Shown piece after piece: positions 1 to 25,251 of a DNA stretch of 64,000 nucleotides (its first letter is position 1; each line of letters opens with the position of its first letter). The notes beneath the pieces are model-generated. The model made no database searches. It was not told where the DNA came from and saw nothing but the letters and a program-made list of their open reading frames with translations. This DNA comes from Eubacterium sp. (GTDB taxonomy: Bacteria; Bacillota; Clostridia; Lachnospirales; Lachnospiraceae). The stretch lies in NCBI GenBank assembly GCA_017477505.1, contig JAFUVQ010000060.1:248001-312000 (forward strand), read 5' to 3'. The position numbers were made by a program, and so were the translations under genes.

Positions 1-2046
1 AATATCTTCATCTTCAATTATCATTAAAAACGACGAACCTGCATCGAATATTTCATCATTGGCATATTCATTGGTCATAGCTGTATTACATGCAGATACT
101 ATCTCACCCGCAGAAGTAAGATCTGCTGCAATCCTTAATTTGTCCAAGTAAGTTTTTTCATATTCAATATCTTCGTCATCAATACTATCATAACCACCAC
201 TCAAATCTAAATCTATGTATTCAATATCACCGTTGAAAAACTGATAACCATCATAAAAAGTATCATAATTCATGTTTTTACTATTCCAAAAACAGTTCAC
301 ATTATCATCAATAAGCACACTATTCTCCCCGTCAAAGCTATAAAGATCACCGTCTTGTTTAAATAAAAGAGTTTTCTTGTCAATTCGGGCATAATCCTCA
401 ACAGCTTCTTCCCTCAACATGACATTACCTTTTGAATCAACATACTCGATATCGCATTCATAATCATTATCACTTCTAAAAACCATATTCCCATCTTCAA
501 ACAAATCCATTATTTCCCCAACATTACTAGCGATTTGTCTAAAAGACCCCTTGTAATATAAAAACCAATCATAACCATCATTATTCTGAGCTGACTTATA
601 ATATGCTAACTTACCATTTTTTAATATCATTTCGTGGACATCATCTACTAACAATTTAATATCCGATACTCTCCCACTCTGTATATTTCCAACGTAAATT
701 CCTCCTTCTATATCCATAAGGAACAATTTATTGTCATATATAAATACATCATCAATTTCATTCTCTCGCAAGATCTTTATGTCCGGAAGTTCAACTTTTG
801 ATTTGTTATTATCAAATGTATAAAAAACGTAATTAAATAAGCCATTTCCATAATCTGAATCCATATAATCATAAATCTCTTCAATATCACTTTTTCCCGC
901 ATTTACATCCCATTCAGCATAAATATTACCCTTTATATCAATTGTTGAAGAGCTTATAAGAGAGCTTTTTCCTTCCCTATAATAATAAATGCTGCAGACA
1001 TCAAGCTCCTCCTGAAGCGACTCCCTTATTAGATTTCTCCCTGAAGCCTTTTCAAAATCTTCTTCGGTGTAACTACCATGATTCTTGATAATATCCTCGT
1101 CATTTTTTTTAAGATTATCATTAATATAGTCAAAAGGAATTAAAGGTTCATCGTTTATAACGTAATAAACCAGAGTGTCTTCATACAAATTCACTATTCC
1201 ACCTTTCTCCCCTTCGACTAGAATTGTTTTTCTTCCATCAAATCCTACAGATATAATATTATCGTCTTCATCCGCATACACTAATGACTTTGTTCCTTCT
1301 ACTAAATATACACTATCAACATCTTTTACGATAAGCTTAGCAGTATCCGGATTATTCAAATCTACACTATATACATTTTCTAAATAATCATCTGTATCTT
1401 CTCCTACTATCACAGTTCTATCGTTTTCCACTGAATACAGTGTATTATAGATTTGTTTAGAATCCTTTCCATCATAATAGTACAAATCATCATTTTTATA
1501 GTAAAGCAAACCGTTATTCACCGCTTGCATACCAGGCCTGACATTTTTAGATATTATTTCCCCAGCATTTGTAGTAGATTTCTTTTTTATTTTATTGACC
1601 TCAACCCTGTAAAGAGTACCTTCACCATAATCATCGCTATACGAAGCCAGATAATAAAAAAAACTTCCATCAGGACTAAAAACAGCAGTGGTCTTTTCGT
1701 CAGAAAGCAATTCATTACTATCAAAAACTATTCCATTATCCTTCTGAATCTTATTATATAGTGAATAGCCTTCATCAGAATTAACAATACAAACACTTTT
1801 CGTTGTTTTTTTCTTTATAAATTTGAACGCCTTTATTCCCAGAAAAGCCAAAACAATCGCACACACAACAATTACAGGAACAAGAATAAACAATCGCTTT
1901 CTATTCTTTGGAAGTGAACCTGGTGATCCGTGATTATATGTATCAAAGCCGTTATTCTCTTCTGAATAATCATATACTTTCTCGCCACAACTCGCGCAGA
2001 ATCTACTACCATATTCAATTTCTCTTCCACACTTTGTACAAAACAT
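1..2046 (-). CDS. Zinc-ribbon, single-TM protein with beta-propeller-like exterior (3' end outside window)
   Basis: The frame is open from an ATG at 2046 to the left edge without a stop, so at least 682 residues are present and the C-terminus is missing. A GGAGG Shine-Dalgarno sits just upstream of the start. Residues 1-25 form a CxxC...CxxC zinc ribbon (FCTKCGR, FCASCGE), a charged linker follows, and one hydrophobic helix lies near residues 50-70. The large remainder is rich in aromatic and acidic strands with repeated Y/L-Y-D patterns and an FSPDGSFFYY segment, as in TolB- or DUF5050-like beta-propellers. By the positive-inside rule the zinc ribbon is cytoplasmic and the propeller-like part is outside. 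It is the last visible member of the 25 kb cluster and shares its N-terminal layout with the proteins at 3242 and 4157. Function unknown. Confidence 0.8.
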   Translation of the reverse strand, partial: MFCTKCGREIEYGSRFCASCGEKVYDYSEENNGFDTYNHGSPGSLPKNRKRLFILVPVIVVCAIVLAFLGIKAFKFIKKKTTKSVCIVNSDEGYSLYNKIQKDNGIVFDSNELLSDEKTTAVFSPDGSFFYYLASYSDDYGEGTLYRVEVNKIKKKSTTNAGEIISKNVRPGMQAVNNGLLYYKNDDLYYYDGKDSKQIYNTLYSVENDRTVIVGEDTDDYLENVYSVDLNNPDTAKLIVKDVDSVYLVEGTKSLVYADEDDNIISVGFDGRKTILVEGEKGGIVNLYEDTLVYYVINDEPLIPFDYINDNLKKNDEDIIKNHGSYTEEDFEKASGRNLIRESLQEELDVCSIYYYREGKSSLISSSTIDIKGNIYAEWDVNAGKSDIEEIYDYMDSDYGNGLFNYVFYTFDNNKSKVELPDIKILRENEIDDVFIYDNKLFLMDIEGGIYVGNIQSGRVSDIKLLVDDVHEMILKNGKLAYYKSAQNNDGYDWFLYYKGSFRQIASNVGEIMDLFEDGNMVFRSDNDYECDIEYVDSKGNVMLREEAVEDYARIDKKTLLFKQDGDLYSFDGENSVLIDDNVNCFWNSKNMNYDTFYDGYQFFNGDIEYIDLDLSGGYDSIDDEDIEYEKTYLDKLRIAADLTSAGEIVSACNTAMTNEYANDEIFDAGSSFLMIIEDEDI

Positions 2047-2110
2047 AGCAGCCTCCTTTCTTCAACTTAAATCATAGTTTAAGTTATATCAAACGCTGGA
2101 TTTACCATAC

Positions 2111-3205
2111 TTATTCAAAATAAGAATATGTATTAAAGGCAAATATATCATCTTTCTCTCCAAATGAAATATCATACCAAATATACCGTGCTAGTCCTGT
2201 TTTCTTGGATACTAAGAGTTCTCCATGACCAGTTTGCCACTGAATATGTGCATAAAAATTATAATTATCTTCACTATCTATTCCACTATATGACTCTCTT
2301 CCTGATTTTGGTGGCAATGTTGCCATATACCTTCTTATAGCTCTATCAGCTTGCTGTTTGGTGATGCATTGATTATAGTCATATCTTTTATTATCCATAA
2401 ATCGGATCAATAACATAGCGCACTGAGCTCTTGACGCTCCTCTTGAATGATTCAAATATAGTCTTCCGTTTATATTAACACCATATATAATTCTACTGTA
2501 AAGTGCCCATTTAATAGGTATTCTCACCTGAGAATCGGTTGATAGTGAACTAACATCCGAATACTTCGATATATCACTCCTGCCAGAAACGGAAAAACTA
2601 TATAACGTAGCAAAATTAAAAAGCATTATACACATTTGCGCTCTTGTAATCTCATTCTTAGGTTTAAACTTTCCATTAGGAAATCCTCCCATTATTCCAT
2701 TTGCGTAACACCATCCCATTTCTTCGCTTCCATTTTCGCCCATCTTTAAGTCATCAAAATTCCCTCTATAAGCATAATCAACATTATACCCTAGGTATTT
2801 TGCCAAATTGTATAAAGAGATAGCAAACTGAGCTCTTGTCACATTTTTCTTCGGTCTAAAGCTTTGCTGTCCATAACTGTTATAGTCACCAAAACCTTTC
2901 ATTAACCCATAATTATATGCACGTAGCATCTCATTTGCTCCAGAATCAGTCTGTCTTACATCCTTAAAAGGCCAGCTTGCAAAAACATTGTCAACAATTT
3001 CGTTCTCAGGTAAGATTATTTCATCTGCATCAGTCTGAGTGGCTACTCTAGCATTTATATCAGTATGAGCATATGATAATAAATAACTATTATAGCTCGA
3101 TGACACACTACATAAAACAAGTAATACAATAACTACCTTTTTATACTTCTTTATATTTCTGGCATTATAATCACTATCAGATTTTGAAATTCTAAATAAT
3201 AACAT
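2111..3205 (-). CDS. SLH-domain surface protein
   Basis: A 364-residue protein with an N-terminal membrane segment (around residues 24-42, VVIVLLVLCSV) that can act as signal peptide or anchor. Three S-layer-homology repeats follow, recognisable by VTRAQFAISLY, ITRAQMCIMLF and ASRAQCAMLLIRF, each preceded by an F-x-D-[VL] strand. SLH domains bind pyruvylated secondary wall polymers, so this should sit in the wall. The C-terminal 80 residues are unassigned. It lies between zinc-ribbon proteins of the cluster on the same strand and may anchor that assembly to peptidoglycan; this role is inferred from position. Its SLH set resembles the one in the broken gene at 27.7-29.7 kb. Confidence 0.85.
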   Translation of the reverse strand: MLLFRISKSDSDYNARNIKKYKKVVIVLLVLCSVSSSYNSYLLSYAHTDINARVATQTDADEIILPENEIVDNVFASWPFKDVRQTDSGANEMLRAYNYGLMKGFGDYNSYGQQSFRPKKNVTRAQFAISLYNLAKYLGYNVDYAYRGNFDDLKMGENGSEEMGWCYANGIMGGFPNGKFKPKNEITRAQMCIMLFNFATLYSFSVSGRSDISKYSDVSSLSTDSQVRIPIKWALYSRIIYGVNINGRLYLNHSRGASRAQCAMLLIRFMDNKRYDYNQCITKQQADRAIRRYMATLPPKSGRESYSGIDSEDNYNFYAHIQWQTGHGELLVSKKTGLARYIWYDISFGEKDDIFAFNTYSYFE

Positions 3206-3241
3206 AACCTAATCTCCCTTCGATGATAAGTATTACGTGTT

Positions 3242-4129
3242 TTATCTATATCCATTCCCATCTATATATTCTTTTACAAACTCTGCAATAATATCCTCAC
3301 AAGCAGTATTATCCGCTCTGTTTGGATATTCAAAATATATCTCTATATATGCTGCTGATGTCATATTTGACATTCTGTAGTATACGTAAGTATTATCGTA
3401 CAGATAACCTGTAAGATAACTCCTGTTTCTATCTTCGTAACAGGCATCCCATTCGACGGTTGCCCCCTTGTTGAGCAATGCATTTTTTGCATTCTCGTGG
3501 CGTTCTTTAAAATTTATCTCCCCATAATCACTGTATCTTGGCCATTCAGTAATATACAATTTCAATCCGGTCTGAAGATGTTCAAATGTATATTCGGCAA
3601 TGTCACCTTCTTCATTCACTCCGGTTTTTTTGAATCCCTCCACTATCTCATAAGTATCACCATATTTCCCGGTAAAATGCTCAACGGATGTATATGCTCC
3701 ATTACCTGCCGCTTCGTGCATAGTATCAGGTGCTTCTGTTGAGGCCTCCGTCTTTGTCTCAGTAGTTTCCGTCGTTGCTTCTGTTGTATTTTCAGTTGTG
3801 ATTTCCGTTGAATACTCTGTTATATTCTGCGTATCCAGCATAATAGTATTTTTATCAGTTTTCTCTAAAGCTCCCTCTTTATCATGTAAATCAATCGTAT
3901 AATCAGTATCTTCTACTTCAATACTCTCATCAGATTGTTTGTGTCTTATAAGGATGATGATTGACGAAATCAAAAAGACAAGGATAATAAGTGAAACAAA
4001 AGATATTATAATAAGTCTCCACAGAAACGGCTTATTATCTTGTTTCACCTGTCTAACGATTGCCTCACCACAAAACGGACAGAACGCTGCAACTTCAGGA
4101 ACTTCTTTTCCACATTTCGAACAATACAT
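3242..4129 (-). CDS. Zinc-ribbon, single-TM protein with Thr-rich stalk
   Basis: A 295-residue protein. It opens with a four-cysteine zinc ribbon (MYCSKCGKE, FCPFCGE), then a strong membrane helix at about residues 37-60. A Thr/Glu-rich low-complexity stalk (TTENTTEATTETTE) leads to a C-terminal globular domain of about 150 residues with many Tyr and Asp that I cannot assign. The predicted topology is zinc ribbon inside, stalk and domain outside. Only 27 bases separate it from the next gene upstream, so it is part of the same transcript. It repeats the design of its neighbours at 1-2046 and 4157-6025 with a different outer domain. Confidence 0.8.
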   Translation of the reverse strand: MYCSKCGKEVPEVAAFCPFCGEAIVRQVKQDNKPFLWRLIIISFVSLIILVFLISSIIILIRHKQSDESIEVEDTDYTIDLHDKEGALEKTDKNTIMLDTQNITEYSTEITTENTTEATTETTETKTEASTEAPDTMHEAAGNGAYTSVEHFTGKYGDTYEIVEGFKKTGVNEEGDIAEYTFEHLQTGLKLYITEWPRYSDYGEINFKERHENAKNALLNKGATVEWDACYEDRNRSYLTGYLYDNTYVYYRMSNMTSAAYIEIYFEYPNRADNTACEDIIAEFVKEYIDGNGYR

Positions 4130-4156
4130 ACCCTATCCTCTTAATTCTATATTCTA

Positions 4157-6025
4157 TTATTGCCCAATCTTCTTTGCGTTATCATCATATACATCATAGC
4201 AATTCCCAGATACGAAGAAGGAATTTCCTTTAGACTTGAGTCCATCAACAATCAAAATATTATTGGGATACATATACTCATGTTCGTAATAATAATCTGA
4301 CATTAAATCAGTATCATTGCAAATTGTATAAATAATGAGTGCAGCCAGTCCCGGATTAGAACAATCTTTTGTTATTCCCAGATAGTTTCCTCCCCAACAA
4401 TATCCTTGAGGTGGTTTACATATGCAATAAGGAGATGAGAGCTCATCTGAATCAATGATTGCGGAGAACCATGGACACCCAAAGAAACCAAACACGTCCG
4501 TATTGGTCAGATCTTCAAACCAATCAGCATCCCACATATCTGTTTCTTTTATTGCACCTATAGAATTAAGCTTTGTCAATACATCAGCTTTTAATACAAA
4601 TGAATCCTCATAAGATTCTTCCACCATGTTAAGTCCAACCGCCAAATCCTGTTCTGCCGAAAGCATATAATATCCGCTAGCCTTCATCTTTTTTGCCAGT
4701 TCAACAAAACCATCCCAGGTACTTATCATATCACCAATCGTTTCAGAATCATCAGTTCCAATAACCTTCTTCGCTATATCAGATTTATAGTAAAACCCTC
4801 CAGGATAAGCACTATAAGCTACATACCTAAGCTCAGAATCATTATTTGCTTTTGTAAATGTATAGTCATAAGCATAGGAAAAGTTATCTCTCGAAAGTCC
4901 CACATCCGATAAATCTATAAAAAAGCTTCGACATTCTTCGAACGAATTATCAAGTTCAACCAATCCCTTTACGTTTGACAATGCATCGGCAAGATTAGCA
5001 GAAGTATCTCTATATTTCATATTAACAAGATCTTTGTACTCCGGATACTTTTCAAAAAAAACATCCATGATATCTAACAGATCCGAATTCCAGTATGAAA
5101 AAGTTAAAGTTTCATTACTAACCGCCGGCAGGTTTAATAGAGCTTCCGACAGGTCATCTTCCCCAATATGAGCAATATCCCCATCAGAAACAAAAGCATC
5201 GACACTTATAATTCTCTTTTTAGCAGACCCTGACTGTTCAATACTACAATCTATCTCAATATCAGAATCGTTCAAATTCAGTTGAATTTCTCCTGTTCGA
5301 TTCCTTATTAATGAATCGGATTCATCCTTAAGAGTATAATCTTCACCATATGAATCGTCTTGATCATTAATTACTGCCTTAAAAAAATCCTCTTTTGCCT
5401 CAAGCATGTCATACTCATCTACAAATTCATAAGATGAAATATCCCAAATCAGAGGGAATCCACCGGTTTGGATTCTCACCAGCGATTTTCGGACAAAAAA
5501 CTTATCGGTAAATGTAATGTTTGCCTCTATAATGCCATCAAACAGAAAATAATCCTTATTCACAATCTCTACATCAGAAATAATTGATTTGTTTTTCATA
5601 CTACTTTCATTTATTTCTAACGTATACTCCAAAGCATCGGAGGGCATTTTTTTAATTATATATTTGGAATTTGGTGCTGATGAACCCAGCAAAAAAACGA
5701 GAACAATGGCTAATAAAAATGTTATAAGTCCGGCAATTAAGGATAACTTTACTCTATTCCCCGAATTTATACCATGCTGAGGGGCATTTCCCCCAGTGTA
5801 CTCATCGCCATTGGTAAGATGATTACTTATGTTATCTTTTGAGTTTAATACAAATGATTCTTTTCCGAATGATACTGAAGCTGCAGATGACGCCTCATTT
5901 GATGCATCATATTGTCGATCTTGCGAGTTGCTTGCACCAGAAGAAATGTGTACAATTACTATGCCACATCTCCCACAAACAATACTTCCATCTGAAATTT
6001 CAGATTTACAAGAAGGACAGATCAT
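4157..6025 (-). CDS. Zinc-ribbon, single-TM protein with solute-binding-protein-like outer domain
   Basis: A 622-residue protein with an AGGAGG site before the ATG. Residues 1-20 are a zinc ribbon (MICPSCKSE, VCGRCG), a Ser/Asn-rich linker follows, and a membrane helix sits near residues 93-115. The distal half (about 330-610) looks like a family 1/8 extracellular solute-binding protein, with TWDGFVELAKKMKASGYYM and a late WGGNYLGITKD segment of the kind that precedes the last helices of that fold. Such a domain tethered behind a cytosolic zinc ribbon is not a normal ABC transporter component, and no permease is nearby. It may sense a ligand or use the fold as a scaffold. The solute-binding assignment is by pattern only. 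Confidence 0.75.
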   Translation of the reverse strand: MICPSCKSEISDGSIVCGRCGIVIVHISSGASNSQDRQYDASNEASSAASVSFGKESFVLNSKDNISNHLTNGDEYTGGNAPQHGINSGNRVKLSLIAGLITFLLAIVLVFLLGSSAPNSKYIIKKMPSDALEYTLEINESSMKNKSIISDVEIVNKDYFLFDGIIEANITFTDKFFVRKSLVRIQTGGFPLIWDISSYEFVDEYDMLEAKEDFFKAVINDQDDSYGEDYTLKDESDSLIRNRTGEIQLNLNDSDIEIDCSIEQSGSAKKRIISVDAFVSDGDIAHIGEDDLSEALLNLPAVSNETLTFSYWNSDLLDIMDVFFEKYPEYKDLVNMKYRDTSANLADALSNVKGLVELDNSFEECRSFFIDLSDVGLSRDNFSYAYDYTFTKANNDSELRYVAYSAYPGGFYYKSDIAKKVIGTDDSETIGDMISTWDGFVELAKKMKASGYYMLSAEQDLAVGLNMVEESYEDSFVLKADVLTKLNSIGAIKETDMWDADWFEDLTNTDVFGFFGCPWFSAIIDSDELSSPYCICKPPQGYCWGGNYLGITKDCSNPGLAALIIYTICNDTDLMSDYYYEHEYMYPNNILIVDGLKSKGNSFFVSGNCYDVYDDNAKKIGQ

Positions 6026-6035
6026 TAGAAGCCTC

Positions 6036-7457
6036 CTATGTCAAGCCTTTTGAATATTTATCATATAGCTTTTTTGCAGCCAAATTTCCTTGTGCAACTG
6101 ATCTTTTTATATATACGAAGCTTTTTTCATAACACCCGGGAACATTAGGGAACATACGGCATAGCATAGCTGCATTAAGAAGAATATTGTCATCATCACA
6201 CTGATATACATCCACTAATTCTATAGCAACTGATAATGCACACTCATAATCTTTCTCAAGCAAATATATATTGAGAAGTGTAAGCAGCGCCCTGAATCTT
6301 AGATCATTATCAGTAGATGACTTTACAACTCTTCTCATATATTCCTTTGACAAATTGTGATTCTTTTCAAAACCCGGTTCTCCATCATAGTATTTCATTC
6401 CAAGCCGATAATATGCAGATACTTCTCCATGTCTTCCTGCCATTTCATAAAATGAAATACCCTTTTGAATATCCTTAGGAACCACCTTCCCATTCATGTA
6501 TACATTGCCCAAAGTGACCATACTTTTCACATCGCCTCTTGAATACGAAGCTTTTAGATGTTTCATCGCCTTATCGTTATTTCCCGTCGAAAAATACAAA
6601 TAGTATTCTCCCAGAATTCGATTTACAGCTGATTCCTCAGAAAACTTTGTGTCATTCAACAGCATTTGTGCATACGGGCTTTTGTGATATAGCAATACTT
6701 GAAATAATTCAACAGCCTTTTCAGTATCTTTATCACAACCAATCCCTCTATATAGCATTTCTGCTACACGATAAAAAATCTTTTCATCATATTCGATGAT
6801 TGACATTATAACCTTGTAGATGGAAATGGCAGAGTCATAAAAACCAGCCGCTTCTAAGTCCTCAGCCATTTTCATTAATGAATCCTGATATTCATTTATG
6901 GACACATTTTCGTGTACACAATCCTCAATTATGCATTTTATAAAGAAGAATATATCTCTGTTACCATCAATGTATGCCTTAATCGCCCAACCAAGTGATT
7001 TTCGAATATCATATATTTCATCCGGAAGCAATGCACAACACACGGAACACATAAACTCAATGTCATTCGGTATTTCAACACCACTGCACTCATACAGTAG
7101 CACAGCTCTTGTTAAATACTCGTAGGAAAGACTTACTCTGTAATGAAACATAATCCTGGCAGCTTCAGCATTGTCATTCGCATTATTGAATCTGATTTTC
7201 AGCAAAGACTCTGAAACTGCAGGATATAGTTTTTTATCAAGATGAACTGCCTTAGAATAGCACTTAAGCCCTTTCGGTATATCTATTTCCGTACCTATTC
7301 CAAATGCATAACAGTTTGCCAGGTTGTACAATAATTCAGGATCATATGCATTAACCATCGACAAATGACTAAAAAGCCTAAAAGCGCTTTCATAGTTCCC
7401 TTCATCAATACACCTGCTGGCTCTATTAAATGTGTCTCTATACTCCTCTTTTGTCAT
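6036..7457 (-). CDS. Sel1/TPR-like repeat protein
   Basis: A cytoplasmic 473-residue all-helical protein without signal peptide or TM. Sel1-like repeats are clear: ANCYAFGIGTEIDIPKGLKC, AEMLYRGIGCDKDTEKAVEL and LGNVYMNGKVVPKDIQKGI, plus RLGMKYYDGEPGFEKN. Sel1 repeats are scaffolds for protein-protein contacts. The ATG at 7457 was chosen over a TTG one codon upstream because GGAGTG lies at a proper distance from it. The stop is 10 bases before the next gene's start, so translation is probably coupled. Within the cluster it is a plausible adaptor between the cytosolic parts. Confidence 0.85.
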   Translation of the reverse strand: MTKEEYRDTFNRASRCIDEGNYESAFRLFSHLSMVNAYDPELLYNLANCYAFGIGTEIDIPKGLKCYSKAVHLDKKLYPAVSESLLKIRFNNANDNAEAARIMFHYRVSLSYEYLTRAVLLYECSGVEIPNDIEFMCSVCCALLPDEIYDIRKSLGWAIKAYIDGNRDIFFFIKCIIEDCVHENVSINEYQDSLMKMAEDLEAAGFYDSAISIYKVIMSIIEYDEKIFYRVAEMLYRGIGCDKDTEKAVELFQVLLYHKSPYAQMLLNDTKFSEESAVNRILGEYYLYFSTGNNDKAMKHLKASYSRGDVKSMVTLGNVYMNGKVVPKDIQKGISFYEMAGRHGEVSAYYRLGMKYYDGEPGFEKNHNLSKEYMRRVVKSSTDNDLRFRALLTLLNIYLLEKDYECALSVAIELVDVYQCDDDNILLNAAMLCRMFPNVPGCYEKSFVYIKRSVAQGNLAAKKLYDKYSKGLT

Positions 7458-7483
7458 CAATTCACTCCGTGAACACTATTGTT

Positions 7484-8860: not shown

Positions 8861-8886
8861 GTTTCTTATTCCCCTACATTCATTCA

Positions 8887-11211: not shown

Positions 11212-11224
11212 CTTATATTCCTCC

Positions 11225-13447: not shown

Positions 13448-13457
13448 GCGTTGCCTC

Positions 13458-14039: not shown

Positions 14040-14072
14040 GATTATTGATCTCCTTTGCTAAATACAATCTTA

Positions 14073-15413: not shown

Positions 15414-15433
15414 AAACATCCCCCCATATGCAT

Positions 15434-15457
15434 AAAGGATGTATAAATACATCCTTT
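15434..15457. repeat. Perfect inverted repeat between the tubulin-like gene and its downstream neighbour
   Basis: Arms AAAGGATGTA and TACATCCTTT are exact reverse complements separated by four bases (TAAA). It lies 20 bases after the tubulin-like stop and just ahead of the Shine-Dalgarno of the next gene. No T-tract follows, so a terminator is unlikely. It could be an operator or an RNA hairpin for processing, which would allow different amounts of the two proteins. Confidence 0.7.
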
Positions 15458-15477
15458 ACACATACGCTCTATATTAT

Positions 15478-18400: not shown

Positions 18401-18864
18401 TGAGTCCTGCCAACCTGTCTCATGGCACCTGCACCAATACCGGCAAACTCAGATTTTGCACTGGTATTATTGTATAAGCTTTTGTTGGTCCAATCTTTAT
18501 AATCATTCCAGGAAGCATCATCAGGATTTATAGATTCATGTACATTCTCATTTGAAGACAGAGCACATACCTCCGAAGAATCTAGTTCATCCTTATCAAG
18601 ACGTCCCTGAAGATTGTTTCTAACATCCGTATCGATAGCAAGAAATCTAACCTTTTTCTTTATCTCATCTTCATTAATTGTTTTCTGCATTTCTGATTTG
18701 AGATCACACAAAACAGCAATTCCGCTACCGCCAAGTCCAACAAATATAAAATTCTCATCAGATAAATCCAACTTATTCTTGTTAGACATTCCAATTCCCG
18801 AAAGATACTTGAGTGTACCAACATTATTCTTAATTTTATCCTTAGTCTGCTTATCAAGTGCCAT
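15478..18864 (-). CDS. Tubulin/FtsZ-like GTPase (Tubulin_2 type), 1128 residues
   Basis: The N-terminal 350 residues carry the tubulin/FtsZ nucleotide fold: FVGLGGSGIAVLCDLK at about 41-56, RFLAIDTD at 73-80, and the signature AGIAGGTGSGTIVDFG at about 191-206, equal to the GGGTGSG loop of FtsZ and tubulin with one Gly replaced. The remaining 750 residues are mostly helical and far longer than FtsZ (about 380), so this belongs to the large tubulin-like family found in gene clusters rather than cell division. There is no TM or signal peptide. AAAAGGAGAAGG precedes the ATG. It is the largest cytosolic part of the cluster and may polymerise or act as a GTP switch at the membrane under the vWA protein encoded immediately upstream. 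Confidence 0.88.
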   Translation of the reverse strand: MALDKQTKDKIKNNVGTLKYLSGIGMSNKNKLDLSDENFIFVGLGGSGIAVLCDLKSEMQKTINEDEIKKKVRFLAIDTDVRNNLQGRLDKDELDSSEVCALSSNENVHESINPDDASWNDYKDWTNKSLYNNTSAKSEFAGIGAGAMRQVGRTHLMFRDNYEMLRKKLVGLTNELTVGKPEADVKIFVYAGIAGGTGSGTIVDFGIILRNVINKYNAEINIGRVSYRAMIMMPSSQGDVTGDKKTSGERNAYATLKEFDYLNTAKDQGVEYFIQCGTEQLKVDEAVYDFVSLVEGMSNTTKLPPKTAQNVLVKTMISMIIKNDFETRNAEGNQVFLMESLLSNPVDIKRKVTSGRRKDFPRNANYAYNSLGYTECILPVDLIVSYVMKSVFDEFYKMYRKGGDFYNLKPESKENVFFKFLELSGLTEKEVGKNPVSRQTLEANVNKAYRQMMTSENMGPFYAIDFTYFLVSDEYHFLDKYIKKFDGGVFGPSKKDINCQNAYKMLKRYLLELNNKTFGIYTTVIEEISSIINEDANILTAPEIFKSQFSTTFSWTPIAFDGDSKGHNALEQFVGKRYIARAHEFARELSADLWDRRDEWTDIENISSRKEMNSGAAKAIREFVSAKVGDKVNKDKELLLTIAYSGNPDAELDDPQGNPTQDVKTAAAQIYADIKQNALPLANYVNNMYTSIAPLKYIAIPSDWTRISRELKDLAGKDSMEKFNVYHTNVDDKISAFAVNHGLAPFMLVSVANHMEQAYEVNATEVGLHLVQGENENWADLQNLNVMDRWNLKLEDDGWKENDGEDANFDRHPEASKREAEAIYSTFKKADYLMEKGLIKYQPSGEQEYPYVLVTATGKSNVDSIVSSLGINDDANAMTEFDINALFDGESYAKLKNAKLFREEKITYYNMVTTDPNVALESDEDKKAKWYYSKQILYRNFRLRKLLEKTYDIVKELTDVITSHNDEVEHGIRSRGRIGSFIKLLGRGNIVFDEDFMSWMTHVPGRKDEYIIDMSSDSNIKLEHKLYAVYKWFVSQSADYYDEIIQDCIPKMTELSDEEMAEEKNVIQKEKQYKADLKELLKPMMENKKSDKWNFSINSASFTTKASQAGLDPVDVEKFYHDLYENQL

Positions 18865-18919
18865 AATCTACCTTCTCCTTTTATTGTTTATCTTTATTCA
18901 TCTGACTCATAAAATGCTT

Positions 18920-20827
18920 TTAAGCAAAATCCTCATCAGAAAAATCATTTGCATATGTGAAACTAAGCATTATAGTTGTAATAAATCCACTTTCTACATC
19001 AAGAAGTGAAGAGTCAAATACTGTCCCAGGAAATCCATTCTCAATAACATCTCTCTGGTGATTTCCTCTTATCATGTATTTATCCATCTTATCTTCTTTG
19101 ACTATTATCAGTTTCTTTCCAGCTATCTCGCTTTTTATAATTGGATTTGAATTAATACTATTTTTGATTTTATTAATTCGTTCTGAAACCATCGCCTGAT
19201 TAATTGTATTTCTAATCAACGCAAAAAGATCGTTAGAACTACCACGCGGCGGAGCAACCGGAATTGACTCTGTCATTCCATCAGAAGTAGTAATAAGCAA
19301 CTCCATCGTCCCAGGAATTGGTCCTTTAAAAATAGTATTTATAAGAAGAATCAATGTTCCTACTATTACAGCCAATGCCAAAACCGCACAAATAACAATT
19401 ATCAATATATTATCTTTTTTTACAGGTTGTGGTGGAGTTGGTCCAGGCTTCGATGAGCCACCTTTATTTTCAGAAACCGTCACATTTAGTTTATTGGCAT
19501 CTGTAGACTGAATCACATTCCCTTTAGTTGTAAGCTTAATTCCAAGTGTGTAATTTCCCTTGTCAGTAAACTGATAATCCGTATGAATTTCCGCTTGATT
19601 TATATCCATCTGGCTTTTGCCAACTTCATTTCCTTTATCATCCCAAATCACAAGTTCAGCATCTATGTCCGAATATGCCTCAAGATCATCTATTATACTT
19701 CCATCATCAATATAGTAGACAGCTCCTGAAACAGAAAAAGAAGTGTTTGTTTCTGTGGTATCAGGCTGTCCGTCTTTAAACTTTACTTCAAGATTCTGAT
19801 AATAAATAAGAACATCCACATGCACAAGCTGCTTAATATCACTTGAAACAGAAACAGTCCAATCTCCAGCTTCCGGTTGTAGAAGTTTAATGGTAAGTGA
19901 ATTGCCATTTGACAGCGTTTTATAATCTATTCCATCTATAGCATCTTTTCCATCCGGCTTTTTAACTCCAAATTCAATGTTATCGTCATGATCAATCTTA
20001 ATGTCCGCTTCAAATACATTGTCATCAATCTGTATAGGAACATCGACCGCCTGTCCATTTCCCGGAAGATTTACATCCTGTCCTTTTTCAGAGCCATCCT
20101 GACCATTTAGTTCCTTAAGAATCCCACTGATATTTGTAGTTAAATCTTCAGGAGTGTTTGGAAAATAAGATTTTCCATTCGTTTCGCTCGCGATAGTATC
20201 AATACAGTTCTTATAAGTATCATCTGTTGGATTAAGTCCTATAGAATAAATCGGATAGTTTTTAGCAGCGGCAGCCTTAATCGAATCATCCAATCTTTTT
20301 TCAGCCTCATCGGCAGAAACACCTGATTTTGCTACATCGTTCTGACCATCTGTCAAAAGTATTATAGCCTTGCTATGATTTGGAACGCCAAATTCATCAA
20401 GCTGAGAAATAGCCGACTCAAGTCCCGCTCCAATATTAGTATAATCACCATTTCTCTTTATTCTTGTATCAACAAAGTTATTAATCTCATCACGATCAGT
20501 TTCGCTTCTTATCTCTCTAAGATTAAACCTGTCAACTTCCTCAAGTGAATACGAAACAACACCCAACTGATCTCCAACATCAGGTCTTGTTGCAAAAAAA
20601 GCTTTAATTGCCTGAAGCGTAAGTTTATTAGGATCAGTCTTTTGCATAGAACCTGAATCGTCTATTACAAAAACTATATCAAAGTTTTTTGTTCCTCCAA
20701 GCCCATTACTTTGTTCAGCGTATACAGCTTCTGAATTCACCATTAGGGAAATAATCATAAATAGGACTAGAAAAATAGGAATAACTGTTTTTTCTCTCTT
20801 TACTACCCTTGACACACTTGAACGCAT
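18920..20827 (-). CDS. Secreted/membrane-anchored vWA protein
   Basis: A 635-residue protein. The signal peptide covers residues 1-37 (VIPIFLVLFMIISLMV, cleavage near VYAEQ). The vWA domain runs from about 48 to 240 with an intact MIDAS start, DDSGSM, at 56-61 and LLTDGQND later. Beta-sandwich segments follow, then a Pro-rich hinge, one TM helix (about 470-495, ILIIVICAVLALAVIVGTLI), and a cytoplasmic C-terminal domain of about 135 residues ending in an acidic tail (DFSDEDFA). It can therefore carry a signal between the outside and the tubulin-like protein encoded 55 bases downstream. A consensus promoter and a putative two-site operator lie directly upstream, so it heads the operon. Confidence 0.88.
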   Translation of the reverse strand: MRSSVSRVVKREKTVIPIFLVLFMIISLMVNSEAVYAEQSNGLGGTKNFDIVFVIDDSGSMQKTDPNKLTLQAIKAFFATRPDVGDQLGVVSYSLEEVDRFNLREIRSETDRDEINNFVDTRIKRNGDYTNIGAGLESAISQLDEFGVPNHSKAIILLTDGQNDVAKSGVSADEAEKRLDDSIKAAAAKNYPIYSIGLNPTDDTYKNCIDTIASETNGKSYFPNTPEDLTTNISGILKELNGQDGSEKGQDVNLPGNGQAVDVPIQIDDNVFEADIKIDHDDNIEFGVKKPDGKDAIDGIDYKTLSNGNSLTIKLLQPEAGDWTVSVSSDIKQLVHVDVLIYYQNLEVKFKDGQPDTTETNTSFSVSGAVYYIDDGSIIDDLEAYSDIDAELVIWDDKGNEVGKSQMDINQAEIHTDYQFTDKGNYTLGIKLTTKGNVIQSTDANKLNVTVSENKGGSSKPGPTPPQPVKKDNILIIVICAVLALAVIVGTLILLINTIFKGPIPGTMELLITTSDGMTESIPVAPPRGSSNDLFALIRNTINQAMVSERINKIKNSINSNPIIKSEIAGKKLIIVKEDKMDKYMIRGNHQRDVIENGFPGTVFDSSLLDVESGFITTIMLSFTYANDFSDEDFA

Positions 20828-20886
20828 TTACGTTTCCTCTTTTCCAAATATAGACTTTTGCTTTATTAGCAAAAACAGACAAACAC

Positions 20887-20916
20887 ATTATAATTTATTT
20901 GAGTATGTTTTGTCAA
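20887..20916 (-). promoter_or_regulatory. Consensus sigma-A promoter of the vWA/tubulin-like operon
   Basis: On the minus strand TTGACA (20916-20911) and TATAAT (20892-20887) are both perfect consensus boxes, 18 bp apart. They lie 60 bases upstream of the vWA start. The spacer contains TACTCA, one half of the repeated motif annotated next, so a bound regulator would cover the promoter. Confidence 0.85.
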
Positions 20917-20934
20917 TTATTGCTCATTTGAGTA
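20900..20934 (-). promoter_or_regulatory. Putative two-site operator (TACTCA pair, 29 bp apart)
   Basis: TACTCAAATGA at 20934-20924 is followed by a second TACTCAAAT whose first base is exactly 29 bp downstream, inside the promoter spacer. The same 11-base word and the same 29 bp spacing occur upstream of the XRE regulator at 27.2 kb, and a weaker copy lies upstream of its paralogue at 31.9 kb. Repression by an XRE protein is inferred. Confidence 0.6.
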
Positions 20935-20945
20935 CCTGTGAAAAA

Positions 20946-22244
20946 TCACCCAAGATAATTAGTTTTTACAACATGAAAACCTTTTTCATCCTGAGACAAT
21001 AGAACAGCACCACCTTCAAGAGTTGTAAATTCTTCCGGACGTATCCGGTCAAACAACTGCTCATGAATACCAGTACCTTTGTTCATCCCCGCAAAAGGAC
21101 TGAATGCCCCTTGAGAAGTTCCATTATTTACACTTTCAAACTGTCTCAGATACTGTCCTATACTTCCTGAATAAACTTCAGCTGTTTTTGCATTTGGACA
21201 ATTCATGATTACGGCAGTATTCATTTTATGCAACGAATATTGTGCATCGTTTTCAGAGTCCCCAAAAACACTTTGAATGCTGTCAGCGGACAAAACCACA
21301 GAAAACGGTAATGTCGGAGCTTTTAGTATTTGAGTATTTAACACTGTATTACTTACATTAATCGAATCTAGCACAAGCATAAAATGTTTGCCCTTATCCA
21401 TAAGTGAATTAATCTCCGATGCAAGATAATCCAGCACATATGTATTTGAAGGGGTATAAATTGAAAGAATGTTCTTCATTTCAACCGCACTTATTATGCT
21501 TACATTAGTTGCCTCTTCATGTCTTTTTTGCCATATCCTCCCATCCAGATGACTGGCAAAAGCATTAACATCAGCCCTGACCTGGAAAGAAATATTATCT
21601 TGTTTTAACAAACTGAATATTCTTTCTCTATCATAAACAGATACATCATTTTGTTCATAAGAAGAAGCTCCTAATCTTCCACTAGAGGCCGAAAAACATT
21701 CTTTTTCAATTGTCTCCACATCCATATTTACGATGCTTAATATAGCATCTAAATCTATTATCTCATTTTTGCCCTCAAGAATATCTATATAACAATTCAA
21801 GGCATCAGAGCATTTATGTTGCTGCATATAGGATGGATTATCCATTGAAAGCTGAGGATATATAGTTTCAACTATCCTCTCTCTATTCATCCCATAGAGC
21901 GGTTCATATAGCATATTATCCCCGCTTATATGACATTGTGAAACACGTCCACCTTGTTTTGCCAGCCTCTGATATAATCCAGGAAATAGTTTTATAATTC
22001 TAGAGATATCATTTATCAACCCTGGATTATTATGGATAATTATCACTCCAATATTTCCATAACATCTTGCAATTGCCTCAAGAACTATCCTATTCCTTTT
22101 GGATAGACTGCCACCATATATCGCCATATTCTCGCGTTTGGAAAAATCAGCAAGCCAATCACCTATAGCCTCTGCTTTAGTAAGCGTCACCCCTCTATTA
22201 GTTCTATTATTATAATTCAGGTTTTCTTTGCTCATTCTTTTCAT
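20946..22244 (-). CDS. Degenerate VirD4/HerA-like ATPase paralogue (predicted inactive)
   Basis: A 432-residue protein from the ATG at 22244 with GAGGAA upstream; a TTG two codons earlier is the alternative. Its layout parallels the active ATPase encoded immediately upstream: a P-loop region at the front, a Walker-B-like LVLDS, a PFSVVLSADSIQSVFG segment matching KVIAGIQSINQLF in the neighbour, and a C-terminal LEGGAVLLSQDEKGFHV strand pair. The P-loop reads YGGSLSKRN, without the Gly-Lys-Thr needed to hold phosphates, and the Walker B lacks the catalytic Glu. It probably arose by duplication and now serves as a structural partner in a mixed ring. No TM segment is seen. Confidence 0.7.
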   Translation of the reverse strand: MKRMSKENLNYNNRTNRGVTLTKAEAIGDWLADFSKRENMAIYGGSLSKRNRIVLEAIARCYGNIGVIIIHNNPGLINDISRIIKLFPGLYQRLAKQGGRVSQCHISGDNMLYEPLYGMNRERIVETIYPQLSMDNPSYMQQHKCSDALNCYIDILEGKNEIIDLDAILSIVNMDVETIEKECFSASSGRLGASSYEQNDVSVYDRERIFSLLKQDNISFQVRADVNAFASHLDGRIWQKRHEEATNVSIISAVEMKNILSIYTPSNTYVLDYLASEINSLMDKGKHFMLVLDSINVSNTVLNTQILKAPTLPFSVVLSADSIQSVFGDSENDAQYSLHKMNTAVIMNCPNAKTAEVYSGSIGQYLRQFESVNNGTSQGAFSPFAGMNKGTGIHEQLFDRIRPEEFTTLEGGAVLLSQDEKGFHVVKTNYLG

Positions 22245-22246
22245 AA

Positions 22247-23575
22247 TCAATTTCCTCTGTACTCCTGAAATTTGAAGAAGAATGGAACTTCAACATCAGA
22301 AAGACCAATTATAGCCTCACCGGTTTTTAGCCTCATCTGATCCCATGTTTCAACAGCATACCCCTCTCTTTCTCTTATCTCTATGCTCTTATCTATCCCT
22401 GTATATTCATAGCCGATAACATTATTCCCAAAAACCTCAGATACATATTGTCTTGATGCATTATCCGATGTATGAAAGGCGAAAAGGTTTGAAAACCCAC
22501 CAGCAAGCACATGTCCTTTGGCGTCACCATATATATCAAACAACTGGTTAATTGACTGTATACCAGCTATTACCTTAACACCTTTACTCCTCCCAAAATT
22601 AAGAGCGTCGTCAAGATGCTGTAACTTTGGTAAAAGTTTTAATTCATCAAGAATAAGATATACGTTTCCTTCTTCTTTATCCCCTCTTCCCAGTGCTTCC
22701 TGCAAAGCCAAATCAATCAGTAATCTGTATATTGGAGTCATAGTTTCCCCCGTAGTCAGATCATACTCAACAAAAACCGTATTTCCTCCTTTATTTTTTA
22801 CGGTATTTCTCATTGAAAATCTTCCCTGACTATCATCATCAGCGAAAACCCCCAAAAAGCAATCGTATAGCATATTCTTAAGTTCAGCAAAAACACCTAA
22901 TGCCTGATTAGAACTACCATCTCCAAAATATGAAAGCATTCCTCTCATATCGCTATAGGAACTGAACACACGAATATATTTACTAACATCAGCTTTTTGA
23001 ATATAGCTGACTAAATGCTTATTTGTAAGCTGTTCTCTCCCAAGAGCTGGATTTTTCTCAACCTGACGTATGAAATAAATAATCAGATGTGCAAAAATAT
23101 CTCTTGCAGCATTTGAAAAAAAAGGTTGCGATTCAGATCCTCTTCCGACAAACAATCCTGCAGCTATCTCCCGGGCATTCATCTCATAGTCCTCAGGATT
23201 CATTCCATCTGCAAGAACCTCATCGAACAGATTCCATCTTTCACTCAGTTTTCTATATTCCTTCCCATTTCCCAGAACTATATCACTTTCTCTGCCAAAA
23301 TTATTATAGAAATCACCCTTTGTATCAAACACGATAAAAACATCATTACTGTTTCGTCTACTTAACAACTGACTAAACATCAGATTGAATACATTCGTCT
23401 TACCGGAGCCTGCTCCTCCCAAAAGGAGTGTATGTCTCGAAAGCATGCTTTCATTTAAGGAAAAGTAAAACTTATCCGGTTCATAAGCATCGAACAAATT
23501 AATAATTCCGTCCTGCAGCGGTCGTTTAATTCCGTCCTGTAATTCGATTCCAAGAACAGTCTTTTTATTGTTCAA
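22247..23575 (-). CDS. VirD4/TraG/HerA-like ATPase
   Basis: A 442-residue ATPase starting with TTG at 23575, supported by GAGGTGA eight bases upstream and by the absence of a nearby ATG. Motifs: Walker A LLGGAGSGKTNVF at about 51-63, IVFDTKGDFY at about 81-90, Walker B VYLILDELKLLP near 305, and the sensor-like IAGIQSINQLFDIYG typical of TraG/VirD4 coupling proteins. Those proteins pump DNA or protein through membranes, but this one has no TM helices of its own. The small membrane protein encoded immediately upstream may provide them. Its stop nearly touches the start of the degenerate paralogue, so the two are likely made in equal amounts. No relaxase or VirB4 is nearby, so conjugation is unlikely. 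Confidence 0.85.
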   Translation of the reverse strand: MNNKKTVLGIELQDGIKRPLQDGIINLFDAYEPDKFYFSLNESMLSRHTLLLGGAGSGKTNVFNLMFSQLLSRRNSNDVFIVFDTKGDFYNNFGRESDIVLGNGKEYRKLSERWNLFDEVLADGMNPEDYEMNAREIAAGLFVGRGSESQPFFSNAARDIFAHLIIYFIRQVEKNPALGREQLTNKHLVSYIQKADVSKYIRVFSSYSDMRGMLSYFGDGSSNQALGVFAELKNMLYDCFLGVFADDDSQGRFSMRNTVKNKGGNTVFVEYDLTTGETMTPIYRLLIDLALQEALGRGDKEEGNVYLILDELKLLPKLQHLDDALNFGRSKGVKVIAGIQSINQLFDIYGDAKGHVLAGGFSNLFAFHTSDNASRQYVSEVFGNNVIGYEYTGIDKSIEIREREGYAVETWDQMRLKTGEAIIGLSDVEVPFFFKFQEYRGN

Positions 23576-23581
23576 AGTTTG

Positions 23582-24115
23582 TCACCTCGCAACTAATCCT
23601 ACGATAAAAATAATAATACTGATGATAGCCAGAATAACAACTAACGAAGGAAACAGCATACATATAAGAATTAATACAGAACTGAAAAAATATACCAATA
23701 AGGCAGTTCCAATTCCTGATCCACGTCCCATACCAAATATGGTTATTCCGCAAAGAAGTGCAGATAATAAAACCCATATCATTATTTTCTTCACTATGCT
23801 TTCAAACCACGCATGCAGTCCATGAAAACCTCCTCCATCAATACCCACGATTTTTACTGTAACGATATAAACAACTACTATCAGTACTATAGTTACAATG
23901 AATTTTATTAGATCTAGTCCATTGAAAGAAAAAGCACTGAAATCAATTCCTTTTCCTAAAGATATACCAGCGCCTCTTCCACCTTTTCTTTTTCTGGTGT
24001 CAACAGGCAAATTCCAATCATCAGTAGCTGAGTCATCATTCCAACCATCTTCGGAAAAGCCATCAAATCCATTAGAACTTATATCTGTATCATCCCATAC
24101 GCTTCTTCTTTTCAT
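23582..24115 (-). CDS. Small polytopic membrane protein with acidic/basic N-terminus
   Basis: A 177-residue protein. The first 55 residues are soluble, acidic and aromatic (GFDGFSEDGWNDDSATDDW) and end in a basic patch (DTRKRKGGRG). Three to four TM helices follow (IVTIVLIVVVYIVTVKIV; IMIWVLLSALLCGITIF; GTALLVYFFSSVLILICM; a last Ile-rich helix). The acidic-aromatic plus basic head closely resembles that of the polytopic vWA protein at 7.5-8.9 kb. It lies directly before the TTG-initiated ATPase and could be its membrane dock. Family unknown. Confidence 0.8.
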   Translation of the reverse strand: MKRRSVWDDTDISSNGFDGFSEDGWNDDSATDDWNLPVDTRKRKGGRGAGISLGKGIDFSAFSFNGLDLIKFIVTIVLIVVVYIVTVKIVGIDGGGFHGLHAWFESIVKKIMIWVLLSALLCGITIFGMGRGSGIGTALLVYFFSSVLILICMLFPSLVVILAIISIIIFIVGLVAR

Positions 24116-24133
24116 AGCAAACTTGAATCCCTT

Positions 24134-25213
24134 CTACATATCAATCCCAAAACTGTTATCAGCGCCTTCTGTCATTTGATCAATCCCACTATCAATTCCG
24201 TCAACAGTCTGATCTATTCCATCATCAATTCCATCAACTGCATTCTCAATTCCTTCGTCAACCCTGTCAATCGCACTGTCTATCCCATCATCTATTTCAT
24301 CAACTGTATGTTCAATCCCTTCATCTATCTTATCAATTCCTTCATCAATACTATCATCTATCTCATTGACTGTATGCTCAATCCCTTCATCTACTCTATC
24401 GATGGCCGAATCTATCCCATCATCTATTTCATCAACCGTATCATTTATTCCATTATCTATTCCATCAACAAAATTATCTAATGGGTCACTTTCTTCAGCT
24501 TGACTATTTGTACCATATACTCCGTTTCTTAATTCTGTCATAGATTCCTCTCTTTTCCGGCTAATTATAGCCTCCATTTCAGGGCCGTCCTCCATCCCAT
24601 CACTTCTCATCTCATCCCTAAGGATTTCCATATACTGATCTATAGCTTTCTCGCCACTAGCCATCAATTCTTCCTTTGTCGGATCACGGTAGTAATCATT
24701 TTTTAACACCAGTGTTTTTGCCATTTTTTCTTCCTCATCTTCCCATAACTCCAACATCTCATCTGCTTCTTCAGGAAGTGAAAACTCTTCTGACTCAAGG
24801 TTCTCATTTGTCATAGAATAGTAATCAACTTCTTTTTTTTCACCATCAAAAATTTCAGTTTTAGCCGTTATTACGTCCGGTCTCGATGATGCACCATGAT
24901 ATACAGGTTCAACTTCTACATAAACATCATTACCTTTCTCAAGATTATCAGCCCACCAATTCTCAAGACTTTTATATGAGCCTCGATTTATGTGTTTGTC
25001 TTCTGGAACCAGGTTTTCCTTTTTCCCCGAACCCGCAAATCTCGTTCCAATTAGGTGACCGCCATCATCATTTTCTCGGCGATATTCCCCTCCTACAGTT
25101 CTCTGTGCATAAGCATCTCTCTCCCCTTCTTCAAGTTTAAGCTGCCCTCCGGCATAGACTACTTGTCCTAGGTCATTTGCTTTATACTCATATCCTTCAT
25201 TTTGTTTTTCCAT
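24134..25213 (-). CDS. DNA/RNA non-specific endonuclease-like protein with hendecad-repeat tail
   Basis: A 359-residue protein from the ATG at 25213, with AGGGGGA at the right spacing; an ATG at 25219 is too close to that site. Residues 10-125 match the bacterial toxin-type Endonuclea_NS family: GQVVYAGGQLKL, then DDGGHLIGTRFAGSG (about 49-63) with the catalytic His, then NLVPEDKHINRG (67-78) with the metal-binding Asn, then WWADNLEKGNDVYVEVEPVY. Residues 130-245 are acidic helices. Residues 249-350 are about nine tandem 11-residue units (such as DDGIDSAIDRV and DEGIEHTVDEI), expected to form a long amphipathic helix or coiled coil. There is no signal peptide. It is the likely effector of the cluster; no cognate immunity gene is certain. 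Confidence 0.8.
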   Translation of the reverse strand: MEKQNEGYEYKANDLGQVVYAGGQLKLEEGERDAYAQRTVGGEYRRENDDGGHLIGTRFAGSGKKENLVPEDKHINRGSYKSLENWWADNLEKGNDVYVEVEPVYHGASSRPDVITAKTEIFDGEKKEVDYYSMTNENLESEEFSLPEEADEMLELWEDEEEKMAKTLVLKNDYYRDPTKEELMASGEKAIDQYMEILRDEMRSDGMEDGPEMEAIISRKREESMTELRNGVYGTNSQAEESDPLDNFVDGIDNGINDTVDEIDDGIDSAIDRVDEGIEHTVNEIDDSIDEGIDKIDEGIEHTVDEIDDGIDSAIDRVDEGIENAVDGIDDGIDQTVDGIDSGIDQMTEGADNSFGIDM

Positions 25214-25251
25214 AAACATCCCCCTAAAAGGACAATAAGTTTCATTTGTTT

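Follow-up and report, generated by a model that had tools for sequence, protein, structure and literature searches.

A possible toxin-deploying machine in a Eubacterium island: a nuclease and an active/dead VirD4-like ATPase pair beside a tubulin/GTPase core

What might a bacterium do with a toxin-type nuclease, two VirD4-like ATPases, a tubulin-like protein, a GTPase and wall-binding proteins that are encoded side by side? This question is raised by a locus of Eubacterium sp. (assembly GCA_017477505.1, contig JAFUVQ010000060.1, positions 248,001 to 312,000 of the forward strand), and this whole stretch of 64,000 nucleotides is called the window below. Positions 1..25219 of the window hold 16 open reading frames (ORFs), all on the minus strand and separated by gaps of −83 to 118 bases (Table 1), as the original prediction, made from the letters alone, had described. 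Our answer is a tentative one, to which we give a probability of roughly 0.45: these genes would make up a two-module conflict machine for deploying a toxin, the nuclease NUC, which would be exported.

A direct Pfam scan, which covered 19 window proteins and three proteins of the island beyond the window, supported the parts that had been named, that is, NUC, the active ATPase (ATPa), the tubulin-like protein (TUB), both vWA proteins and the Sel1, solute-binding-like, SLH and zinc-ribbon proteins, the ribbons of ZR3 and SBP being sub-threshold. The gene set is composed of two modules, which are divergent in the relative locus L070. Module A (25219 to 20946) comprises NUC, TM4, ATPa and ATPd, with gaps of 18, 6 and −4 bases. 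Module B starts after the widest gap, of 118 bases, and has the order vWA1, TUB, CC, BETA, GTP, GAP, vWA2, SEL1, SBP, ZR2, SLH and ZR3. This gap holds a putative promoter of Module B; promoter-like sites overall were near chance (92 versus a shuffle mean of 82.5, SD 9.8).

The ATPase pair and its genomic neighbours

The family profile of ATPa matched TrwB structures (3.3e-27). ATPd, which overlaps it, gave only a sub-threshold Pfam match (TraG-D_C, 0.096). When the two families were aligned to each other, 335 columns were matched (hhalign probability 75, E 2.5e-5), and both GK[S/T] and the Walker B glutamate were absent from all six aligned ATPd sequences; two further ATPd sequences, inspected by eye, lacked them likewise. 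The L070 ATPd had first been assigned by position and alignment, and leave-one-out searches were therefore run to avoid a circular profile. All eight ATPd sequences were recovered from the other seven at 1.9e-13 or better (4.2e-32 for the window, 5.5e-27 for L070). As the sole query, ATPd found no other genome among the 295 genomes of the order; it matched no plasmid or phage, and no PDB chain. The family alignment together with the lost motifs bears out the pairing of an active with a dead ATPase that had been predicted: judged by its residues, ATPd is a dead paralogue of ATPa.

We built an ATPa tree (n = 18, midpoint-rooted; L180, L183 and L184, in which ATPa is truncated at a contig end or disrupted, were excluded). 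The paired ATPa sequences formed one group of eight with a split support of 97/100, and an ATPd gene adjoins ATPa in 8 of 8 members. Seven of these were known beforehand; the neighbour in the eighth, L178, was tested after the tree and proved to be an ATPd (hhalign 95.5). No recognised ATPd adjoins the ATPa sequences outside this group, including that of L177. The pair lies beside tubulin systems in the window, L070 and L073, beside HSP70 and GrpE genes in L170 as well as L171 (where the GrpE match is sub-threshold), and beside kinase, vWA and PP2C genes in L169. As profile searches detected no DO-GTPase in the L169–L171 stretches, which contig ends limit, the ATPase pair may replace the GTPase/GAP1 core there. 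L193 also has the pair, and no tubulin was found in its genome.

The association with the tubulin core recurs. ATPa and ATPd adjoin the core in L070 (Pseudoflavonifractor) and in L073 (Gracilibacteraceae), while in L177 ATPa stands beside two tubulin genes. At E ≤ 1e-20 the ATPa profile was found in 11 of the 295 genomes of the order; TUB was found in 45, and both occurred together in 6 (p = 0.0023). Without the genome of the window, TUB was present in 5 of 10 ATPa genomes (p = 0.0085). Among eight genomes with near tubulins, ATPa matched strongly in four (1e-113 or better) and weakly in one, and three gave no match. The strong matches exceed the share in the order (4/8 versus 10/294, p = 1.8e-4), a comparison of populations that are not the same, the eight having been picked for nearness from 79 tubulin loci and two of the four strong matches being rows of the query profile; the other two have TUB and ATPa on separate contigs. 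The genes thus travel together as the original prediction had assumed: the pair and a nuclease recur beside the core in L070 and L073, and ATPa with a nuclease beside tubulin genes in L177.

Relatives of ATPa were also found on plasmids (65 records at E ≤ 1e-10, one of them adjoining a relaxase), and a scan of viral sequences yielded a single weak one. The loci L194–L198, from a search of the class, carry a different ATPase group with other neighbours and were not used. Zinc-ribbon proteins were considered as constant partners of ATPa and dropped, since they are not clearly more frequent there (5 of 15 ATPa loci versus 14 of 63 tubulin loci).

Nuclease genes upstream of the active ATPase

NUC was matched through its nuclease domain to the EssD/EsaD nuclease structure 8guo (7e-18), with the columns of the catalytic His and the Asn retained. 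Counted along the chain, the catalytic H528 and the metal-binding N551 of EsaD fall on H55 and N78 of NUC, and both residues are retained in L070. In the accessible text of PMC9616950, EsaD/EssD is an antibacterial type VII toxin, and its His and Asn have these catalytic and metal-binding roles; NUC is like it in having this nuclease domain with both residues.

A toxin-type nuclease gene stands one or two genes upstream of ATPa in all four loci that have ATPa and a tubulin gene on one stretch. The domain in this slot differs between loci: Endonuclea_NS_2 in the window, a relative of NUC in L070 (3e-31 to NUC), Tox-HNH-HHH in L073 (1.2e-38) and GH-E, which we take to be a toxin domain, in L177 (2.3e-14). 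The slot gene of L193 carries an HEGTH motif, presumably a zinc-protease signature. In all four nucleases and in the L193 protein the enzyme part is N-terminal and the low-complexity part C-terminal. Type IV effectors carry C-terminal signals, with the enzyme first and the low-complexity tail last.

In a test devised after the sequences had been seen, 249 ORFs of these loci served as background. By composition, the tails of 7 of the 12 slot genes were more prone to disorder than at least 98% of them, and 4 of the 12 had nothing unusual in the tail. The entropy of the NUC tail was within the lowest 1.6% of the same background (0.016). In the window the slot gene lies two genes upstream of ATPa, with TM4 between, and the slot gene of L173 is cut by the contig start. 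Slots were left out where ATPa is the first gene on its strand (L169), close to a contig end (L170) or preceded by a radical SAM gene (L178), where the locus is cut (L180, L183 and L184) and in the plasmid loci L208–L210. Since the motor adjoins different toxins with low-complexity tails, it is suggested that the motor handles the toxin.

Two observations concern the same slot. In L070 a transglutaminase-like membrane protein is encoded directly before the nuclease gene (6234–7574). In the PADLOC scan, matches to ZorA fell on the repetitive tail of NUC and were not trusted.

The tubulin/GTPase core and the possible use of the locus

Relatives of TUB were present in 45 of 295 genomes of the order and in 14 of 299 of the family (the genome of the window is counted in both), and no plasmid matched at 1e-10. 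The GTPase was assigned through its relatives: GTP aligned with a set of 14 of them (hhalign 96.5), of which all three that were scanned matched DO-GTPase2 over the cut-off, and more strongly with nearer relatives (99.8). A single-sequence scan of contigs with the GTPase found nothing. GAP, which has the expected place beside GTP, aligned with its positional relatives at 93.6, and their family gave 44 against seven GAP-position proteins, in the middle-domain region; two GAP-position relatives were scanned, one of which (L049) matched GAP1-N2 (3.8e-39) and GAP1-M (9.3e-12) and the other (L036) neither. Both calls come through relatives in this way, and that of GAP1 is the weaker and tentative. 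The assignment of vWA2 was clear (hhalign 99.7 over 308 columns). CC had no convincing profile match and BETA had none by hhalign, and alignment assigned neither of them; their places in the set are those of similarly sized proteins in relatives. The direct Pfam scan gave no family over the cut-off for CC, BETA, GTP or GAP, or for two further window proteins, N1 and N2; N1, N2 and the slot gene of L193 had no NCBIfam match either. The Walker A motif of GTP reads GxxxxSKS, with Ser replacing the usual Gly, and its activity may be altered.

This core has already been described. In the accessible text of Makarova and Koonin (2010, PMC2875224), FtsZl1 has vWA and GTPase neighbours, membrane remodelling is proposed and filament formation by the family is left open; in our own reading of that text, Tubulin_2 is FtsZl1. 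Those operons resemble the window in the tubulin-like protein with an FtsZ-like GTP loop, the vWA protein and the GTPase, and a kinase lies further along the island here; they have OmpA proteins where the window has SLH and zinc-ribbon proteins, and the text gives them neither an ATPase pair nor a nuclease. Closer still are the Bacillota GAP1-N2 DO-GTPase systems in the accessible text of Kaur et al. (2020, PMC7159879), which include tubulins, two vWA proteins, one with several transmembrane (TM) helices, and a polar extension of GAP1. The window shares with them a DO-GTPase2-like protein with zinc-ribbon motifs, a tentative GAP1-like protein with a TM segment and a polar part, Tubulin_2 and two vWA proteins, one of them multi-TM. 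It differs in having one tubulin instead of two, in the lack of any fn3 match (E up to 1; 19 proteins scanned in the window, and three of the island beyond it), and in the added ATPase pair and nuclease.

The original prediction was thus right about a conflict-type set of GTPase, GAP1-like and vWA proteins with outward vWA and wall-binding parts, and mistaken in placing the tubulin-like protein beyond such systems, as PMC7159879 describes GAP1-N2 systems with tubulins. Its view that the parts are rarely seen together does not hold for the core of tubulin, GTPase, GAP1 and two vWA proteins, which is in print; the VirD4-like pair and the nuclease do go beyond the print that we found. Both published accounts of the core are predictions. 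The module of nuclease, three-TM protein, VirD4-like ATPa and ATPd looks new: no publication linking a pair of VirD4-like ATPases to such systems turned up in a search outside of which lay supplements, most subscription papers and bioRxiv. Kaur et al. (PMC7159879) mention neither 'VirD4' nor 'TraG' in their main text (0 occurrences), and the accessible text of a review on type IV secretion from 2025 (PMC12857230) has 0 occurrences of 'tubulin'. Two predictions of the tubulin/vWA/GTPase set, of 2010 and 2020, are in print, the accessible texts (PMC2875224, PMC7159879) showing no experimental function; a coupling-type ATPase and varied antibacterial-type nucleases give the set a testable job, toxin handling.

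What the sequences show are the domains, the kept and lost motifs, the order of the genes, their recurrence and the varied nuclease domains of the slot; from these we infer the following course of events. Module A would make NUC and its motor, a VirD4/TrwB-like ring with ATPa as the active and ATPd as the dead subunits. TM4 would tie this motor to the membrane, and the low-complexity C-terminal tail of NUC would be the docking signal for it. Module B would be a set of the GAP1-N2/Tubulin_2 kind, whose outward vWA proteins and wall-binding SLH and zinc-ribbon proteins may sense envelope contact or damage, with the GTPase and the GAP1-like protein as the switch. The tubulin-like protein might polymerise at the membrane and place or gate the motor. 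Once triggered, NUC would be pushed across the membrane, more probably to a neighbouring cell than into the cytosol of its own.

Several of the results that follow weigh against export. ATPa is like the VirD4/TrwB coupling ATPases in its ATPase domain with intact Walker A and B motifs and in the adjacent protein of effector layout; unlike them, it has no N-terminal TM helices (none at all were predicted by hydropathy), scores far below the NCBIfam equivalog cut-offs and is paired with a dead paralogue. No export signal was found on NUC, and no type VII targeting region was seen in it by Pfam, the only means used for this. The NUC tail fails on disorder fraction, being only within the top 10% (0.10), and the tail test itself was made post hoc. 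In 8 of the 8 other judged ATPa slots Pfam recognised no toxin domain. Channel genes (VirB4, VirB6, VirB8) and a relaxase were absent from the 19 window proteins, the rest of the genome lying outside this search; on these grounds a conjugative element was rejected. G630 and G632, two close relatives, carry TUB on one contig and ATPa on another. The YezG-like family PF04634, which we take to be that of the immunity protein EsaG, had 0 matches in the genome of the window (assembly 97% complete), in a search in which Bacillus subtilis matched among 14 controls. No other recognised immunity gene was found, and a SUKH-2/Syd match in L073 was below the cut-off (20.6 versus 25 bits) and was not confirmed by a PDB search. 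The genome does encode a type VII EssC over the cut-off, on contig C39, whereas the window lies on C23; a simple type VII toxin locus was rejected because of the missing PF04634 and the separate contigs. In these two respects the locus departs from the type VIIb toxin EsaD/EssD, as it does in the place of the nuclease domain, N-terminal in NUC and C-terminal in EsaD (PMC9616950).

The published reading of the core points elsewhere, too: the accessible text of Kaur et al. (PMC7159879) proposes biological conflict with action inside the cell, and NucA-type nucleases are effectors of another system there. An envelope or phage signal could accordingly trip the GTPase/GAP1 switch so that the nuclease cuts DNA of its own cell, as suicide or against an invader, with the ATPase pair as a HerA-like remodeller by which the nuclease is held or fed. 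The lack of a recognised immunity gene or channel would suit such a system, as would the matches of ATPa to mad8 (4.2e-16) and HerA models of defence systems in the PADLOC scan, which covered 10 proteins. Against it, ATPa scores higher with TrwB/VirD4 coupling proteins than with HerA, the slot nucleases have domains of secreted-toxin kinds (EsaD, Tox-HNH-HHH and GH-E), and the island includes wall-binding and outward vWA proteins. We regard suicide as a serious contender that comes second, export being somewhat likelier.

From defence, delivery and envelope stress, the three options originally offered, toxin deployment or delivery is favoured, with defence by suicide next. An envelope-stress or membrane-remodelling machine after the FtsZl1 proposal of Makarova and Koonin, in which the nuclease is incidental, would agree with the association of Tubulin_2, vWA and GTPase and with the many membrane and wall-binding parts. 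It is improbable, as it leaves unexplained why a toxin-type nuclease and a coupling-type ATPase occur in four tubulin-linked loci, and its patchy presence (within the genus, one genome out of 61 has the GTPase) ill suits housekeeping. Still less probable is a chance neighbourhood, the nuclease and ATPase genes being left over from a mobile element or toxin locus and lying beside a tubulin operon to which they have no relation. The low-G+C accessory island, the plasmid-borne ATPase relatives, one beside a relaxase, and the EssC gene on another contig could all be quoted for it, but other loci show the same association with other nuclease domains, and this recurrence makes it unlikely; NUC also forms a tight unit with the ATPases, and ATPd is without a match on plasmids or phages.

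A wider and more doubtful idea may be considered, namely tubulin/GTPase-controlled toxin injection in single-membrane bacteria. An active/dead VirD4-like motor would grip the C-terminal tails of interchangeable toxins, among them EsaD-type, HNH-HHH and GH-E nucleases and perhaps a zinc protease. The motor pair would be a common unit that can be combined with control sets of the tubulin, HSP70/GrpE or kinase-vWA-PP2C type. Tubulin, HSP70/GrpE and kinase-vWA-PP2C are the three variable-partner themes of GAP1-N2 systems in the accessible text of PMC7159879, and the recurrence of the pair in all three settings would unite these themes of one GTPase/GAP1 core.

The island and further observations

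Table 1. Features of the locus in window coordinates
Feature	Position	Strand	Description
NUC	24134..25219	−	Endonuclea_NS_2 (Pfam 5.7e-29); EsaD-type nuclease domain, residues 5–120; long acidic low-complexity C-terminal part; predicted effector
TM4	23582..24115	−	Small protein; three predicted TM stretches (hydropathy); acidic N-terminal tail with W/D motifs; no Pfam family over cut-off
ATPa	22247..23575	−	VirD4/TrwB-like ATPase; TrwB_AAD_bind (Pfam 1.8e-47); Walker A GGAGSGKT and Walker B DE intact
ATPd	20946..22250	−	Predicted inactive paralogue of ATPa; 4-base overlap with ATPa
Putative Module B promoter	20887..20916	−	12/12 versus sigma-70 consensus; in the 118-base gap preceding vWA1
vWA1	18920..20827	−	N-terminal hydrophobic stretch; VWA (Pfam 2.5e-19) with DxSxS MIDAS motif; one TM, cytosolic tail (topology predicted from hydropathy)
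TUB	15478..18864	−	Tubulin_2/FtsZl1 (Pfam 1.9e-40); GGTGSG loop intact; long C-terminal part
CC	14073..15452	−	459 amino acids (aa); by position, the ~520–640-aa protein that follows the tubulin gene in relatives
BETA	13458..14039	−	193 aa; position as the ~180–245-aa protein preceding the GTPase in relatives
GTP	11225..13540	−	DO-GTPase2-like GTPase; two CxxC motifs, at 51 and 297
GAP	8887..11253	−	GAP1-like (tentative); one TM; polar C-terminal part
vWA2	7484..8887	−	Multi-TM vWA: three TM stretches, vWA, three TM stretches (hydropathy); VWA (Pfam 1.9e-11)
SEL1	6036..7460	−	Sel1/TPR repeat scaffold (Pfam 1.5e-22)
SBP	4157..6025	−	Sub-threshold zinc ribbon (Zn_ribbon_3 2.1e-4); TM; solute-binding-like outer part (SBP_bac_8 3.6e-6, 27.4 bits, cut-off 27)
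ZR2	3242..4129	−	Zn_Ribbon_1 (Pfam 4.6e-8); TM; outer domain (hydropathy)
SLH	2111..3205	−	S-layer homology, wall-binding (Pfam SLH 4.6e-24)
ZR3	1..2046	−	Sub-threshold zinc ribbon (Zn_Ribbon_1 4.2e-5); TM; long outer part; 3′ end beyond the window (continues in L211)

The G+C content is 0.32–0.37 for positions 1–26000 and 0.43–0.47 for 40000–64000, and within the genus the one genome of 61 that carries the GTPase gene is that of the window; the locus is therefore an accessory island. It had been taken for a unit of 25 kb, which does not hold, as the island runs past the start of the window: the adjoining stretch L211 encodes more zinc-ribbon membrane proteins, one of which carries an F5/8 type C domain, as well as a Ser/Thr kinase. 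The latter (11350–13031) lies beside a TPR protein. The F5/8 type C (NADase_transloc) domain belongs to the zinc-ribbon protein at 17629–18738, and the same domain occurs near ATPa in L175. A wall-binding domain, CWB2, is found in L073 as well, while the window has its SLH protein.

On the other side of the island, two genes upstream of it (25449–26114 and 26278–26700) were noted, either of which could be the NUC immunity gene. The one at 26278–26700 has an HSH-S-D pattern that we presume to be that of JAB metalloproteases. An SLH protein with sub-threshold Flg_new-type repeats is encoded on the plus strand at 28035–29690, adjoining the island, and at 32437–34367 a helicase-like gene is broken into several short ORFs in different frames and appears decayed.

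Acidic tails with tryptophan (for example DDW) were seen in TM4 and at the N-terminus of vWA2, and also in a small membrane protein that the L070 genome encodes (L181, 12003–12497). They are perhaps a shared docking motif, which is an impression only.

The genome of the window has a second Tubulin_2 gene, on contig G000:C32 (L052, 8663–11164), beside LepA, HemN-like, HrcA, GrpE, HSP70 and DnaJ genes. Tubulins of similar length (frames of 846–848 aa) are found in G028, G309 and G474 of the family, and the tubulin beside the heat-shock operon may represent a separate, more conserved use.

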